A stretch of DNA of 64,000 nt from Acidiphilium acidophilum (GTDB lineage: Bacteria; Pseudomonadota; Alphaproteobacteria; Acetobacterales; Acetobacteraceae), in the NCBI RefSeq assembly GCF_033842475.1, contig NZ_JAWXYB010000018.1, positions 1,223,501-1,287,500 on the forward strand, written 5' to 3'. This document shows positions 37,898 through 45,110 of this stretch, piece by piece (position 1 is the stretch's first letter; the number at the start of each line of letters is the position of its first letter). Under the pieces are notes generated by a model. That model had not been told where the DNA came from, ran no database searches, and worked only from the letters and a program-made list of their open reading frames with translations. The translations under genes were made by a program, and so were the position numbers.

Positions 37898-39796
37898 ATG
37901 AATGGTCGGTCGCAGCGCAGGTTTGCCACTCCGGGCAAGCATATCGGAACATTCGTGGGCACCGCGTTGCTCATCGGCATGGGCATCCCGGTCGCGCACG
38001 CGGCCGATCCGCAGCCCTACAAGGTGACGTTCAAGCCGAGCGGAGACAAATCGCTCGATAAATTGATCAAGGCGACCTCCAGCCTCGAAACCCTCCGCAA
38101 GAAGCTGAAAATCGGGCCGTTCGCGCTGATTGGCCGCGCCGGGGCCGACCAGAAGAAATTCGTCACGGTGATGGAGAGCGAAGGTTACGATTCCGGTGCG
38201 GCCCATGTCACGATCGACGGGCATGCGTTGAACGACCCCGCTTTGCCTCGTCTGTTGCGTCGGGCGCCTGCGTCGCCGCCGGCTAGCATCGTCGTCACGC
38301 TCGACAAGGGGCCGCTCTATCGTATCAGCAGCATTGAAACGCCGGGCCTGACCGACCCCGCCGCGCTCAAGGCGCTCGACATCAAGGTGGGTGCCCCGGC
38401 CAAGGCAGCCCCGGTCATCGGTGCCGCCGCCAAGCTTGAAACGCAGTTGCGCAACGACGGTTACGCCTTCGCCAAAGTGTCCGATCCGATCGCGATCGCC
38501 GATACCGTGCGCCATACCCTCGCCATCAAATACCCTGTCACCATGGGCGCTCATGTCGCGGTGGGCAGCATCACCTTCACCGGGATGCAGAAAATGAATG
38601 GCCGCTTCATGGCGCGCCACATCAAACTCCGGCCCGGTCAGCCCTACAGTGAAACCGCCCTGAACGATGCACGTAACAGCCTGCTCGGCCTCGGCGTGTT
38701 TTCCTCCGTCTCGACCCATACCGCGGATGCGCCCAATCCCCCCGGACAGGTTCCGGTCACGTTTCTGGTCAAGGAGCAGAAGCTGCACGCGGTTACCATC
38801 GGCGCGTCCTATTCGACCGATCTCGGGATCGATGCCGATGTTTCGTGGATGGATCGCGATCTGTTCGGCGAGGCACAGAACCTGACCTTCTCGTTGGGGG
38901 CGACAGGGATCGGCGGGACCGGATCGACCCAAGACGCCACCTACGGCAAGCATAATTATGTCATCAAACCGGGCTACGACGCCAAGGCGATCTACAAGGT
39001 GCCTGATTTCCTCACGCGCAAACAGTCGATCACCGCAACGATCGAGGCGTTGAAGGAATACCTCCCTGCCTACTCCCGCACGGCCGAACTCGGTGGCGCG
39101 GAGGTCACCCGTATCCTGACCAAACATCTGTCGGTCGATTACGGGGCCGGGTTCATCTTCGAAAAGGTCGATCAGGAAGGGGTGAGCCGGAGCTACCGCC
39201 TCGGTCAGATCCCGCTGACCCTGCGCTACGATACCGCGAACTCGTTGCTGAACCCGACCAGGGGCGTGAAAGTGTCGTTGCACGTCACACCCACCGTGGC
39301 TCTGGGTGCCGGATCGACCGCCTTCACCATCACCGAACTGATCGGCAACACCTACATCAACCTTGAGGCGCCCGGGCGCGGCGTGTTGGCGCTCCGGGGC
39401 CTGGTGGGGCGGATTTTCGGGGCCAGTCAGTTCCAGATCCCGCCCGATCAGCGTTTCTACGCGGGTGGCACCGGCACCGTGCGCGGCTTCACCTATCAGA
39501 CCGTCGGGCCCTTATTCTACGATGGCATCCCCGAAGGCGGCACGGCCATCGATGCCGTCGAAACCGAATTCCGCCAGCGGATCGGCAAGCATTTCGGCAT
39601 CGCACCGTTCATCGATGCGGGGCAGGTATCCGCCACCGGCACGCCTTTCACCGGCACCCTGCGCGTCGGCGTGGGGCTTGGCTTCCTCTATTACACCGGC
39701 ATCGGCCCGATCCGCGTCGATGTCGGCGTCCCGGTAAACCGGCCCCCCGGTGGGGCTTCGGTAGCGGTGTATATCGGTCTGGGGCAGGCGTTCTGA
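37898..39796 (+). CDS. tamA: outer membrane translocation and assembly module protein TamA (BamA/TamA family)
   Basis: 632 residues. A signal peptide (IGTFVGTALLIGMGIPVAHA) is followed by POTRA-like domains (to about residue 290; e.g. SITFTGMQKMNGRFMARHIKLRPGQPYSE) and a C-terminal 16-strand beta-barrel (Omp85/BamA type) with YAGGTGTVRGFTYQTVGP and the closing IGPIRVDVGVPVNRP. TamA pairs with inner-membrane-anchored TamB to move lipids and proteins to the outer membrane. Its stop overlaps the tamB start (TGATG). tamA is intact while its partner is broken here. Confidence 0.92.
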   Translation: MNGRSQRRFATPGKHIGTFVGTALLIGMGIPVAHAADPQPYKVTFKPSGDKSLDKLIKATSSLETLRKKLKIGPFALIGRAGADQKKFVTVMESEGYDSGAAHVTIDGHALNDPALPRLLRRAPASPPASIVVTLDKGPLYRISSIETPGLTDPAALKALDIKVGAPAKAAPVIGAAAKLETQLRNDGYAFAKVSDPIAIADTVRHTLAIKYPVTMGAHVAVGSITFTGMQKMNGRFMARHIKLRPGQPYSETALNDARNSLLGLGVFSSVSTHTADAPNPPGQVPVTFLVKEQKLHAVTIGASYSTDLGIDADVSWMDRDLFGEAQNLTFSLGATGIGGTGSTQDATYGKHNYVIKPGYDAKAIYKVPDFLTRKQSITATIEALKEYLPAYSRTAELGGAEVTRILTKHLSVDYGAGFIFEKVDQEGVSRSYRLGQIPLTLRYDTANSLLNPTRGVKVSLHVTPTVALGAGSTAFTITELIGNTYINLEAPGRGVLALRGLVGRIFGASQFQIPPDQRFYAGGTGTVRGFTYQTVGPLFYDGIPEGGTAIDAVETEFRQRIGKHFGIAPFIDAGQVSATGTPFTGTLRVGVGLGFLYYTGIGPIRVDVGVPVNRPPGGASVAVYIGLGQAF

Positions 39797-42700
39797 TGCG
39801 CCGCGCCCTGAAAATCGTCGGCATCATCATCGCGATCCTGATCGCCCTGCCGATCCTCGCCGTGCTCGCGCTCGACATCGCTCTGAACACCGGGGCAGGG
39901 CGGTCGTTCGCCGCACGGGAAATCGACAGTCTGACCGGCGGCGAGGTCAAAATCGCCGGTCTTGCCGGGCATTTCCCCGAATATATCGCCGCACGCAGCA
40001 TCCGCATTTCCGACGCCAGGGGCACGTATCTCACGATTGACGATGTCGTCCTCCGCTGGTCGCCGTTCGCTCTGTTGCACCGGGCGGTCGATGTGCGCGA
40101 TCTTACGGCCAAGCGGATCGACTTCGCCCGTCTTCCTGTGCCTTCGGCCAAAAAGCCGAAAACCAAGTCCTCGTTCAGCCTGCCGGTCCGCTCGGCGATC
40201 ATCGACCATCTGGACATCGCCCGCATCGATCTCGGCAAGCCGGTGATCGGCCATCCGGTCGCGCTGAGCCTCGCAGGTCACGCCGTCGCAACCTCGCTCA
40301 CCCATGTCGCCGTCGCCCTCCGTGCGACCTCGCTCGATCAGCCGGGCCATTACACGATCGACGCGACGGTCGATCCCCGCACGGTCGCCGCCAAAATCGC
40401 GTTGCACGAACCGCAGGGCGGCATGATCGAGACGCTTTCGGGCATCGCCGCAAACAAAGCCCTTGCCGGTCCGCTCGATGTCACCATCGGCCTCGATGGT
40501 CCCCGTCACCACGCGGCACTGACCCTCGTCGCTGCCCTCGGTGCCCTCCACGCCCATGCCGATGGCACCGTTGATCTGTCACGCGTCGCCCCGGCGGCAA
40601 ATGTCACCCTCACCATTCCCGAGATCGCCCCGTATGCCGCGATCGGACACCGCCAGCTCGATGGCAGGAACGTCCTGCATCTGGTCGCGAACAAGAACGG
40701 GAGTGCGACGAACATCCATGTGGACGACGCCATCGAAATCACCAACGGCGCCAAACCCATTCCCACGCTGGTCGGCAAGCGGGCGACCATCGCTGGCGAT
40801 ATCACGCTCGATGACGGCACCACCACCATCCATAGCCTCACGATCGATGCCGCGGCGATCACCGCGCGGCTCGCCGGGATGGTGGATGCCGATACCATCG
40901 CGCTGCACGGCAACCTCACCCAGCCCGATATCACGCTGATCGACCCTCAACTCACCGGCCACGTGACCGAGCATCTCGACCTTCAGGGGCCCCGCACCGA
41001 CCTTACGCTCCACACCCTCATCACCGGCGCCATCACGACGAAGTCGATCCCCTCCGGCCCGTTCAAGGTCGCGATCGCGATGACCCATCTGCCCAGGGCC
41101 CCACGCGGCAGCATCACCGGAAGCGGCTCGCTCGACAATGCGCCGCTCGCGATCGACGCCGATTTCGCGCGCAGCGCCGCCGGTGCCGTCGATGTCGCGC
41201 TCCACGATCTCACCTGGAAATCGCTCACCGGCCACGGCGTCATCACCCGCGCCCCCGGAGCCAAACTGCCTGATGGTCACCTGCACATCGCCATCACCAA
41301 ACTCGCCGATTTCGGCAAATTGCTGAACATCGCACTCGCCGGCTCGATCGATGCCGAGTTCGCCCATGCCTCCGGCAGTCCAGCCACGATCAAACTCACT
41401 GCGGCCAACATCGCCGAAGGGCGTTCCATCGGCCTGACCAACGCGATCATTAATGCAAGTCTCGATCACATCGACTCCGACCCCGCGATCGATGCCAGCG
41501 CCACCATAACGGGCCTCCGCGCCCCGCAAGTGACCGGCAATCTTGCACTCACCGCGAAGGGCACCGAGGCCGCCCTCGGCGTGACCGCCAAAGGCCGGTT
41601 CGCCAACCTCGCGGGCAAACCCGCCAATCTCGCGCTCGCCGGCACGCTCGATGGCAAGGACCGCATCGTTCACCTGGCAAGCCTCACCGCCGCCGCGCGC
41701 GGCGTAACCGCCACTCTGCTCGGCCCGGCCACGATTATCGCCAAACCGGGGTTCGAGGTGCATCACCTTGCCCTCGGCCTCGGTGGTCTTGGCGGCAATG
41801 CCCGCATCACCGCAAATGGCAGCCTTCGCCCCAACCTTGACCTGACTGCCGCAATCCAGAATCTCCCGGCATCGGTCGCCCGTGCCGCCGACCCCAAACT
41901 CGCCGCCCACGGCATGATCGATGCGAACGCGCATATCACCGGCAGCCTCACCGCACCCACCGGCACGGTCAGACTGATCGGGCGCGATCTGGGGGTGGTC
42001 TCCGGCCCCGGCGCGGGTCTGCCGCCTGCCAGCCTCACCGCCAATGAAACCCTGCTTGGTCACGCCATGCGCGGCACCATCGCCGCGACGCTCGGTACCG
42101 CCCGCCTCAACCTCAACGGCACCGCACCGCTTGCCATGACCGGACCGATGGCATTCACCGCCCGCCTTTCGAATGTCTCCGCCACGCTGGTTCACGCGGT
42201 CGACCCGAAACTCGACGCGCGCGGCATCATCAACGCCAACGCCAATCTCTCGGGCACCCCGCGCACACCGCGCGGCACCATCGACCTGACCGCGACCGGG
42301 ATGCGTCTGCTCAATGGCACGACGGCCTCACTTCCGGCCGCCGACCTGACCGCCCATGAAACCCTCAACGCCACATCCGCCCATGGTTCCGCCCATCTCA
42401 CCCTCGGGACGCGGGCTGATTTGAATGTCGATGGCACGGTCCCGCTGACCAAAACCGGTGCGATCGATCTCGCGGTCACCGGCCGGACCGATCTGCGTCT
42501 GGTCGATCCGATCACCGAAGCCCAGGGCACCCGCGTCACCGGCGTCATCACGCCGAACCTGCGCGTCCGCGGTACCGCCGCCGCCCCACGCGCCTCCGGC
42601 AGCATCACCCTCGCCGGGGGCAGTGTGGAAAACGTCACATCCGGCCTCAACCTCACCAAAATCAGCGCCCTGATCACCGCCGCCGGACAGACCGTTACGC

Positions 42701-42912
42701 TCGATCATCTCGACGCCACCGCCAGTCACGGCACGATCACCGGGCACGGAACCATCGGTCTTCAGGCCCCGATGCCGGTCGATATCCGGATCGCCTTCGA
42801 CAATGCCGGTCCGATTTCGAGCGATGTCATCACCGAATCGCTCGGCGGCGCACTCTCGATCACAGGGGCGGTCAAGACCGCCAGATTGAGCAACCTGATG
42901 TCTGGAAAATAG
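39796..42912 (+). pseudogene. tamB: tamB, 5' part, interrupted by IS256-family copy 2
   Basis: 1029 native codons plus nine element-derived residues (RLSNLMSGK) before a stop at 42912. An N-terminal membrane anchor (LKIVGIIIAILIALPILAVLAL) leads into a long periplasmic stretch of beta-taco-type repeats rich in Ala, Thr and Leu; late modules repeat visibly (DPKLAAHGMIDANAHITG, DPKLDARGIINANANLSG). Fused to the fragment after the IS, the intact protein would be 1317 residues, normal for TamB. The lost part contains the conserved C-terminal domain needed to contact TamA, so this truncated product is probably non-functional. Confidence 0.93.
42876..42883. repeat. target site duplication of IS copy 2 (left)
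   Basis: GACCGCCA, repeated at 44237-44244. Its reverse complement differs from the copy 1 duplication at one base. Confidence 0.92.
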
Positions 42913-42924
42913 GGCGAGCGGGGG

Positions 42925-44106
42925 TCAGGCATCCTGGTAGTCCCACTTGATGTAGCCCTTGGTGTCGGCGGCCCATTTTTCATCGATTTCGACGAGGACG
43001 GCGCTGACGAGGCGTTCGAGGGAGGCTTCGTTGGGGAAGACCCTGATTTTGGTGGTGCGGCGTTTGAGTTCCTGCTGGATGCCGCGTTCCATGGGGTTGG
43101 AAGTGCGAAGCCGGCGCTGGTGGGGTTCTGGCAGTGTGAAGACGGTGAGGCCTTCGGGGATATTTCGTTCGAGCCAATCGGCGAGCTTTGGTGCGGTGTC
43201 GCGATAGGCATTGACGAGGGTTGTGAGAGCGATCTGGGCAGCGGCGAGGGAATTTGCGTTCCAGACGGTCCGGAGTTCTGCGCCGATGCGTTTGCGGATG
43301 GCGTGGTTGGGGGCGTGGTGGATGGCGTTTTGGGCGAGGTGGAACTGGCATCGTTGCCAGTGTGCGGCGCCGAAGACGGCGCGGCGTGCGGCGTGCAATC
43401 CGGCATGGTCATCGGAGACGATGAATTCGACGCCTCGCAGGCCACGCTGATGGAGGCTTTCGAGGAAGGCACGCCAATGGACTTCGGCCTCGGAAAGGGC
43501 GACCGAGACGCCGAGGACACGGCGGCGTTCATCGGGTCCGATGCCGATGGCCGAGAGCACGGCGGCATCGCGGACGACGCCATTATCGCGCATTTTTTCA
43601 TATCTGGCGTCGAGGATGAGGTAGCGGATCTCGGCGAGGGGTCGGGTGCGCCAGGCGGCGAGTTCGTCATCGAGCAGCTTGCTGGCGCGGCTGACCTGAG
43701 CGGAGGAGAGGCTTTCGATGCCGAATTCGCGCATGACGGCCTCGACGTCGCGGGTGGAGACGCCTTTGATGTACATTTCGGCGACGGCGACCATGACGGC
43801 GCGGACCGAGCGTCGGCCGCGTTCGAGGGACTGTGGGTAGAAGGGTTCGCCCACGTGACCGGCGGTTTTGGGGACATCGACGGTGATCGACCCGGCCGGG
43901 GTATCGATCCGCTTGGGCTTGTAGCCATTGGCGTAACCCTGACGATCGGGGTTGCGCTCGTAGTGACTGGCGTGGAGGAAGCGTTCGCGCTCGATCTGCA
44001 TGGCGAGTTCGAAGGTCCTGGCAAATACCGTGGCGATATCGCCTGCGCCGTTTTCGATCAGATGTTCCAAAAGTGCCTCGATAATCGTATCCTTTTTGGC
44101 GTCCAT
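42925..44106 (-). CDS. IS256-family transposase, copy 2
   Basis: 393 residues, identical in sequence to the first copy: D166, D232 and E340 catalytic residues, C253/H256 pair, intact frame. It runs opposite to tamB. Confidence 0.96.
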   Translation of the reverse strand: MDAKKDTIIEALLEHLIENGAGDIATVFARTFELAMQIERERFLHASHYERNPDRQGYANGYKPKRIDTPAGSITVDVPKTAGHVGEPFYPQSLERGRRSVRAVMVAVAEMYIKGVSTRDVEAVMREFGIESLSSAQVSRASKLLDDELAAWRTRPLAEIRYLILDARYEKMRDNGVVRDAAVLSAIGIGPDERRRVLGVSVALSEAEVHWRAFLESLHQRGLRGVEFIVSDDHAGLHAARRAVFGAAHWQRCQFHLAQNAIHHAPNHAIRKRIGAELRTVWNANSLAAAQIALTTLVNAYRDTAPKLADWLERNIPEGLTVFTLPEPHQRRLRTSNPMERGIQQELKRRTTKIRVFPNEASLERLVSAVLVEIDEKWAADTKGYIKWDYQDA

Positions 44107-44158
44107 TCATCGGTCTCCATGTTGGTGTGAACAACTGCATGGAATACCAGAATGAACA

Positions 44159-44188
44159 GCCCTTGCCGGGGCATGCCCCGGCAAGGGC
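44159..44188. repeat. 30-bp perfect palindrome in the IS leader, copy 2
   Basis: Same structure as at 22515-22544, 53 bases upstream of the transposase start. In this position it faces tamB transcription leaving the downstream side. Confidence 0.8.
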
Positions 44189-44236
44189 ACCAACTCCCAA
44201 CCCAAAATGAATTTCCAGACGTCAGGTTACACCACC

Positions 44237-45110
44237 GACCGCCATGCGCCTCGGCGGCACCATCGATATCAACAGCGCCAACATCGAAATCCCCAAAGGC
44301 CTGCCGCCCTCGGTCACCACGCTCAACATCATCCGCCCCGGTGCCAAACCGCCGCCCCCGCCGACTCCGGCACCGCCGATCGGCCTTGACCTCAATGTCG
44401 TTGCGAAAAATCAGGTCTTTATCCGCGGAGACGGTATTTTCGCCAATCTCGGCGGCGCGCTGCATCTGGCCGGTACCGCGGCGCACCCGGTCCCCTCGGG
44501 CGGCTTTCACCTGATCCGCGGCTATTTCTCGCTCGGGGGCAAGAACCTCAAATTCACCAAAGGCACCTTCGACTTCAACGGCGGCGGCTTCATGCCGACC
44601 CTCGACCTCGAAGCGACCAACTCGTCCGCGGATGGCATCACCTCGACGCTTGCCGTCACCGGCACGCCGACCGCTCCGAAAATCTCACTCTCCAGCAGCC
44701 CCACGCTGCCCTCCGATGAGGTGCTGTCCCATCTGCTTTATGGCACGGGCACGCAGAGCCTGTCCGCATTCCAGGCGGTTTCGCTGGCCGCCTCGCTCGC
44801 CCAGCTCGCGGGGATCGGCGGCAGCGGCGGCGGACCGCTCGGCGGGGTGCGCAAGGCGCTCGGCCTCGATGAACTTTCACTCGGCGGGGGTTCCAGCACC
44901 AGTTCGTCGCCCACAGTCAATGCGGGCCGCTACGTTGCCCCCGGCGTCTATGTCGGGGCCAGCCAGTCGGCGACAGGGCAGGGGTCCACCGCCAAGGTCG
45001 AGATCAACCTTTACAAGGGCCTGAAACTCGATACCAAAGTGGGAACCGGCGGCGGTGCCGGCAGCAATAACGGCGAGAGCATCGGGCTGAAATACCAGTT
45101 CAACTACTGA
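44237..45110 (+). pseudogene. tamB: tamB, 3' part (C-terminal DUF490/TamB domain), separated by IS copy 2
   Basis: Continues the tamB frame; an in-frame ATG sits at 44244 on the duplication edge, so a 288-residue fragment could be read if translated. It holds the conserved TamB C-terminal region: LRLGGTIDINSANIEIPKGLPPSV-like start, FHLIRGYFSLGGKNLKFTKGTFDFNGGG, LSSSPTLPSDEVLSHLLYGTG, and the final KLDTKVGTGGGAGSNNGESIGLKYQFNY barrel-like end. Without the N-terminal anchor or a signal peptide, export is not expected. Confidence 0.9.

Follow-up and report, generated by a model that had tools for sequence, protein, structure and literature searches.

The 64,000-nucleotide stretch of Acidiphilium acidophilum DNA that we analysed (hereafter the window) carries a tamB gene in two parts, with an insertion sequence between them. 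This raises the question of how and when the gene came to be split, and whether its loss was favoured by selection or is an ordinary by-product of transposition. The window sits within a 3.64-Mb contig of a 4.16-Mb genome assembled in 21 contigs, and the analysis covered both the locus and the genome as a whole.

An IS256-family element splits tamB at codon 1030

The locus comprises the following features, in window coordinates:

37898..39796, plus strand: tamA-like gene, a 632-aa open reading frame encoding an Omp85 barrel with POTRA; intact and immediately upstream of tamB
39796..42912, plus strand: tamB 5′ part, 1038 codons, of which 1029 are native and 9 element-derived, then a stop
42876..42883, unstranded: left 8-bp target copy, GACCGCCA, exact
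42884..44236, minus strand: IS256-family insertion sequence, 1353 bp, with imperfect terminal inverted repeats
42925..44106, minus strand: transposase of the insertion, 393 aa, intact, IS256-family
44159..44188, unstranded: 30-nt palindrome within the element, 13 pairs and a loop of 4, found as a terminator-like match and as a self-match
44237..44244, unstranded: right 8-bp target copy, GACCGCCA, exact
44244..45110, plus strand: tamB 3′ part, 288 codons, beginning with native Met 1030

The original prediction had given exactly these positions for the element, the two target copies and the tamB halves, and had read the uninterrupted gene as 1317 codons with methionine at codon 1030; we recovered the same coordinates and the same gene, 1029 native codons in the 5′ part and 288 in the 3′ part. 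The predicted product of the 5′ frame is 1038 residues long, its stop lying 9 codons inside the element, and the element end adjoining the transposase start points toward the tamB 3′ part. The 3′ part matches the Pfam TamB family (PF04357) at E 1.2e-47 over profile positions 63-381 of 381, that is, most of the domain, and the 5′ part matches it weakly (E 1.6e-5, residues 770-965). Scored against the NCBIfam TamB equivalog, the split pieces reach 64.1 and 61.9 bits, far below the whole-protein cut-off of 825, and a search of the genome with PF04357 for a second TamB copy matched only the two halves of the split gene.

The upstream gene had been described as an intact tamA. It is indeed an intact Omp85/POTRA gene (Pfam Omp85, E 6.8e-37; POTRA, E 5.6e-14) whose end coincides with the tamB start at 39796, and such a gene also precedes tamB in those relatives whose stretch reaches there. 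Its name is less secure: because the best NCBIfam model, BamA (160.6 bits), and the second, TamA (106.1 bits), both fall below cut-off, the label ‘tamA’ rests mainly on position beside tamB.

The transposase matches Pfam Transposase_mut (PF00872, E 6.6e-92) and the NCBIfam IS256-family equivalog NF033543 at 319.7 bits, above the cut-off of 150, which together with GACCGCCA on both sides upholds the reading of an IS256-family insertion with an 8-bp duplication. At E up to 0.001 its only PDB relative is the solved ISCth4 transposase 6xg8 (E 1.1e-32), with which an Asp, an Asp and a Glu align by eye; all three acidic residues, which we take to be the catalytic triad, are kept. The 30-nt palindrome lies between the outer end of the element and the transposase start, is conserved in three pieces from A. 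rubrum, and may block transcription coming from outside. Compared with known plasmids, the element matched one record, from Novosphingobium sp. PP1Y at 76% identity, in a search that possibly left out records of its own genome.

The element multiplied very recently across the genome

Searching the 4.16-Mb genome with 2 mismatches allowed, we found 62 left and 61 right element ends, all with 0 mismatches, and 59 complete 1353-bp copies. The ends outside the complete copies belong to the copy at L061, which is interrupted by another, to L051, which matches 1340 bases and then departs, and to L042 and L047, both cut by contig ends. Over the 1347-bp core that was compared, 57 of the 59 copies are letter-identical and the other two (the first copy of L041, and L071) share one substitution. 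About 79 kb of compared copies therefore hold one variable site, which is tiny against the dS of 0.08 that separates this genome from a same-species metagenome-assembled genome (MAG), STC_15. Set as 1/79,000 against 0.04 per lineage, the burst would occupy far less than 1% of the time elapsed since STC_15 diverged; the estimate assumes that the copies were not evened out by gene conversion or assembly polishing, either of which could account for part of their near-identity. We conclude that the element multiplied very recently to about 61 copies and that the tamB insertion is one event of this burst.

The element is not foreign to the genus, because two other genomes of the genus, G003 and G007 (the latter A. 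rubrum), contain pieces 95-99% identical to it. Elsewhere in the search of 13 genomes, only short or weaker pieces were found in G002, G008 and G011, and none in 7. Draft MAGs lose repeats, so the missing element match in STC_15 was not used for dating.

Copies are unevenly spread, with 22 complete copies in about 412 kb on four small contigs (C1, C2, C6 and C8). On contig C18, 9 complete copies stand in the first 217 kb (G000:C18:1-217000), as against 25 in the remaining 3.4 Mb or so. The window itself holds a second identical copy (L004, 21240-22592), oriented like the one in tamB; it has an 8-bp duplication of its own and lies shortly upstream of uvrC.

A multiplied repeat invites the suspicion that an assembler joined it to tamB in error, and repeats did trouble this assembly: copies stand at contig ends in C3, C4, C5 and C8, and 2 of the 59, those in C4 and C21, have their left flank in common and may be one insertion assembled twice. 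The tamB copy, however, lies deep within the 3.64-Mb contig and has the same 8-bp word on both sides, as do 41 of the 59 copies, which a misjoin would not create. An assembly artefact at tamB is unlikely enough that we give it almost no weight.

Target duplications and by-products fit copy-out/paste-in transposition

Exact 8-bp duplications flank 41 of the 59 copies and 9-bp duplications another 9. With 59 complete copies genome-wide and exact 8-bp repeats at that many of them, chance is excluded for the tamB element. The 9 copies with neither an 8- nor a 9-bp duplication are 4 dimer members, 2 copies at contig ends and 3 whose duplications are mismatched or missing. Both head-to-tail tandem dimers in the genome have a 6-bp spacer, and one further copy is nested:

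G000:C2:56434-59145: dimer L041, spacer CGTCGC; the whole unit is flanked by AGGTTGGA on both sides, one 8-bp duplication
G000:C18:128557-131268: dimer L057, spacer GCGCAT; the outer flanks do not match and there is no duplication
G000:C18:2233390-2236103: nested copy L061, in opposite orientation inside another copy, with an 8-bp duplication

The copies without duplications and the mismatched outer flanks of the second dimer indicate that some copies have been rearranged.

The available text of one study of the IS256 family describes copy-out/paste-in transposition in which the donor copy stays in place, 8-bp duplications, and circles with spacers of 5, 6, 7 and 19 bp, of which 6 bp was best for integration in vitro (PMC7780238). 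The two dimers, the nested copy and the 8-9-bp duplications fit this known route. In common with IS256 and ISCth4 the element has its transposase family, the acidic catalytic residues, 8-bp duplications and tandem copies with 6-bp spacers; it departs from them, as far as seen here, only in sequence and in the 9 of 59 duplications that are 9 bp long.

We also looked for donors of the dimer spacers. The right flank of L064 begins with GCGCAT, and CGTCGC matches no other copy; given 118 flanks the one match is weak, and it was dropped as evidence. In the left flanks of L056 and L057, the insertions lie 2 bp apart in register within TTTGTAGTGCCACTCGGA, a sequence present at both places, which suggests that a further repeat served as target for the two.

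The insertion had also been called exactly reversible. On paper this is structurally true, but the route of the family leaves the donor copy in place, so exact reversal would come about only through rare precise excision. Precise excision of IS256 is known in staphylococci.

tamB is uninterrupted in relatives and otherwise undamaged

By DNA, tamB was matched in 7 of 11 other same-genus genomes (G002, G005, G009 and G010 gave no match); with STC_15 these make 8 distinct relatives, the matches L010 and L018 both being judged to be A. rubrum. In all 8, the two parts of tamB stand in order, 0 to 9 bases apart and element-free, although in one of them (L016) the stretch compared ends inside the 3′ part. 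The tamB of Acidiphilium rubrum ATCC 35905 stands at 81% in amino acids over the N part, and that of the MAG Acidiphilium sp. STC_15 at 96% in amino acids and 97% in DNA identity to the window tamB. The two parts join exactly in STC_15, with a single GACCGCCA spanning the junction. Because place and identity coincide (C228:4652-6535, 97%), STC_15 and the same-species genome G040 are very probably one genome.

No stop or frameshift was seen in either tamB half, and amino-acid changes are not in excess. Between the N part and STC_15 (residues 147-1029), dN is 0.0175 and dS 0.079, a ratio of 0.22, and the ratio against A. rubrum is 0.20. All 17 changes that separate the C part from STC_15 are synonymous. 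When A. rubrum is used to polarise the changes, those in the N part number 21 synonymous and 6 non-synonymous for the window branch, against 20 and 6 for the STC_15 branch, with 29 codons ambiguous; for the C part the counts are 3 and 0 on the window branch and 8 and 0 on the STC_15 branch, with 6 ambiguous. The view that tamB is otherwise undamaged is thus borne out in both halves. The description of the insertion as fresh likewise agrees with the 57 of 59 identical copies and with the site itself, where the element, let alone an element between decayed tamB halves, is absent from all 8 relatives in which tamB was matched.

Two stop-free frames, the second starting with a native ATG, could also be read as an old insertion long kept, with the tamB halves serving as separate functional pieces. 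Against this stand the same-species MAG, which lacks the insertion, and the near-identity of element copies across the genome. The 3′ part, moreover, starts mid-protein, has no native N-terminal end, and has no sigma-70-like site just upstream that could drive it (none was found in 44040-44420). We regard a long-kept functional split as very improbable and prefer a recent insertion within the burst.

tamB is one of several genes struck by the element

Judged by frames open on both sides of the insertion, a gene is split at 14 of 34 chromosomal and 6 of 23 other copies (2 of the 59, at contig ends, are omitted), compared with 67% of random positions (n = 2000). This is a rough measure, its control being drawn from the window only and its codon model trained on window genes including both tamB parts. 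The 14 chromosomal positives include L061, which lies inside another copy, L004, which lies upstream of uvrC, and L067, whose frame has no Pfam match. On a cruder measure, an open run of at least 200 codons across the site, the counts were 21 of 34 chromosomal and 16 of 23 other copies against 92.5% in the control. By these rough measures, genes appear to carry fewer insertions than random placement would give, a pattern to be expected if many such hits were purged.

Pfam searches of 20 pieces beside insertions matched a family in 16. Split genes include an RND transporter of the AcrB family, both pieces of which match Pfam, a gene with alpha-amylase and maltokinase domains that we read as a trehalose synthase/maltokinase fusion, and a heme oxygenase gene. 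Insertions also lie near the end of genes for a 4Fe-4S protein and a secretion ATPase, and near the start of a glycosyltransferase gene. Further pieces match ArdC-like, PAPS-reductase-like and helicase-like genes and mobile genes (IS21 istB and two other transposases), mobile genes being among those split; uvrC and an acetyltransferase gene stand beside copies without being clearly split. tamB is therefore one among several genes struck by the element, and not a lone event.

This bears on whether the insertion was an adaptive or laboratory-selected change, as had been proposed. Under that proposal, loss of the TamA-docking end of TamB would be favoured in this acidophile, and the insertion, though part of the burst, would be a selected remodelling of the envelope that rose, in nature or in culture, because TamB loss helps under acid, culture or envelope stress. 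tamB does belong to the minority of chromosomal copies that split a long frame, and where gene hits appear depleted, one that persists could have been kept. Yet the RND pump, trehalose synthase/maltokinase-like, heme oxygenase and mobile genes that this element also splits have no theme in common that we can see, and a family of about 61 near-identical copies, scattered in unrelated genes or outside genes, yields such hits without selection; nor was the tamB insertion seen in any of the 8 relatives with a match. Background transposition accounts for hits of this kind, so the tamB hit needs no selection to explain it. We consider selection for the knock-out improbable and the adaptive reading possible but unsupported.

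The insertion would most likely abolish TamA-TamB function

The insertion removes the last 288 tamB codons, and with them most of the Pfam TamB domain. In E. coli, the C-terminal region of TamB engages the TamA barrel. A shortened TamB, comprising the N-terminal end and most of what is predicted to be periplasmic, may still be produced, but because the cut-off piece holds the C-terminal domain, TamA-TamB function is, judging from sequence, most likely lost.

Three AsmA-family loci (C18:166655, C18:1849451-1851649 and C18:1939274) are candidates whose function may overlap with that of TamB, giving tolerance of the tamB hit. In E. coli, according to the available text of PMC8593681, TamB, YhdP and YdbH are redundant and any single one suffices for growth. 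Loss of tamB there and here has in common the loss of the inner-membrane partner of TamA; the E. coli case, as described in that text, is a defined mutant that retains YhdP and YdbH, whereas the one reported here is a natural insertion with candidate AsmA-family buffers.

Discussion

The anatomy of the locus, its target duplication, the number and near-identity of the copies and the uninterrupted tamB of relatives lead us, with high confidence, to one account: a very recently multiplied IS256-family element inserted by copy-out/paste-in at tamB codon 1030, splitting the gene, and TamA-TamB function was most likely lost. By this account, the element would have reached its present number of about 61 copies very recently; one copy would have entered codon 1030, presumably by the copy-out/paste-in route, and the 8-bp target duplication would have been made on insertion. 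The C-terminal 288 residues would thereby have been lost and TamA-TamB function most likely with them, a hit that may be tolerated through AsmA-family overlap with TamB.

Within the genus there is precedent. In cultured Acidiphilium sp. PM, about 600 generations took an IS1634 element from 1 copy to 3, and the available text reports no obvious adaptive benefit (PMC4549789). That case shares with ours the genus, the rising number of IS copies and, so far as that text goes, the lack of an obvious adaptive benefit; it differs in the IS family and in scale, the 3 copies reached there standing against about 61 here. Acidiphilium genomes are, in the available text of a further study, rich in transposons, with 307 sequences on average (PMC7677001). 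Among the literature matches listed, none concerned tamB in Acidiphilium by title, in a search by word beginnings that does not prove absence.

The split of tamB is clean but ordinary insertion-sequence damage of a known kind, in an unusually clean and active family. It documents how, in an acid-mine genus, an IS256-family element has very recently burst through a whole genome, leaving by-products of transposition (the tandem dimers and the nested copy) preserved in the assembly, and it provides an instance of a split tamB in a strain that has been sequenced. For annotation, tamB and the other split genes are best taken as probable strain-level losses and not as traits of the species.
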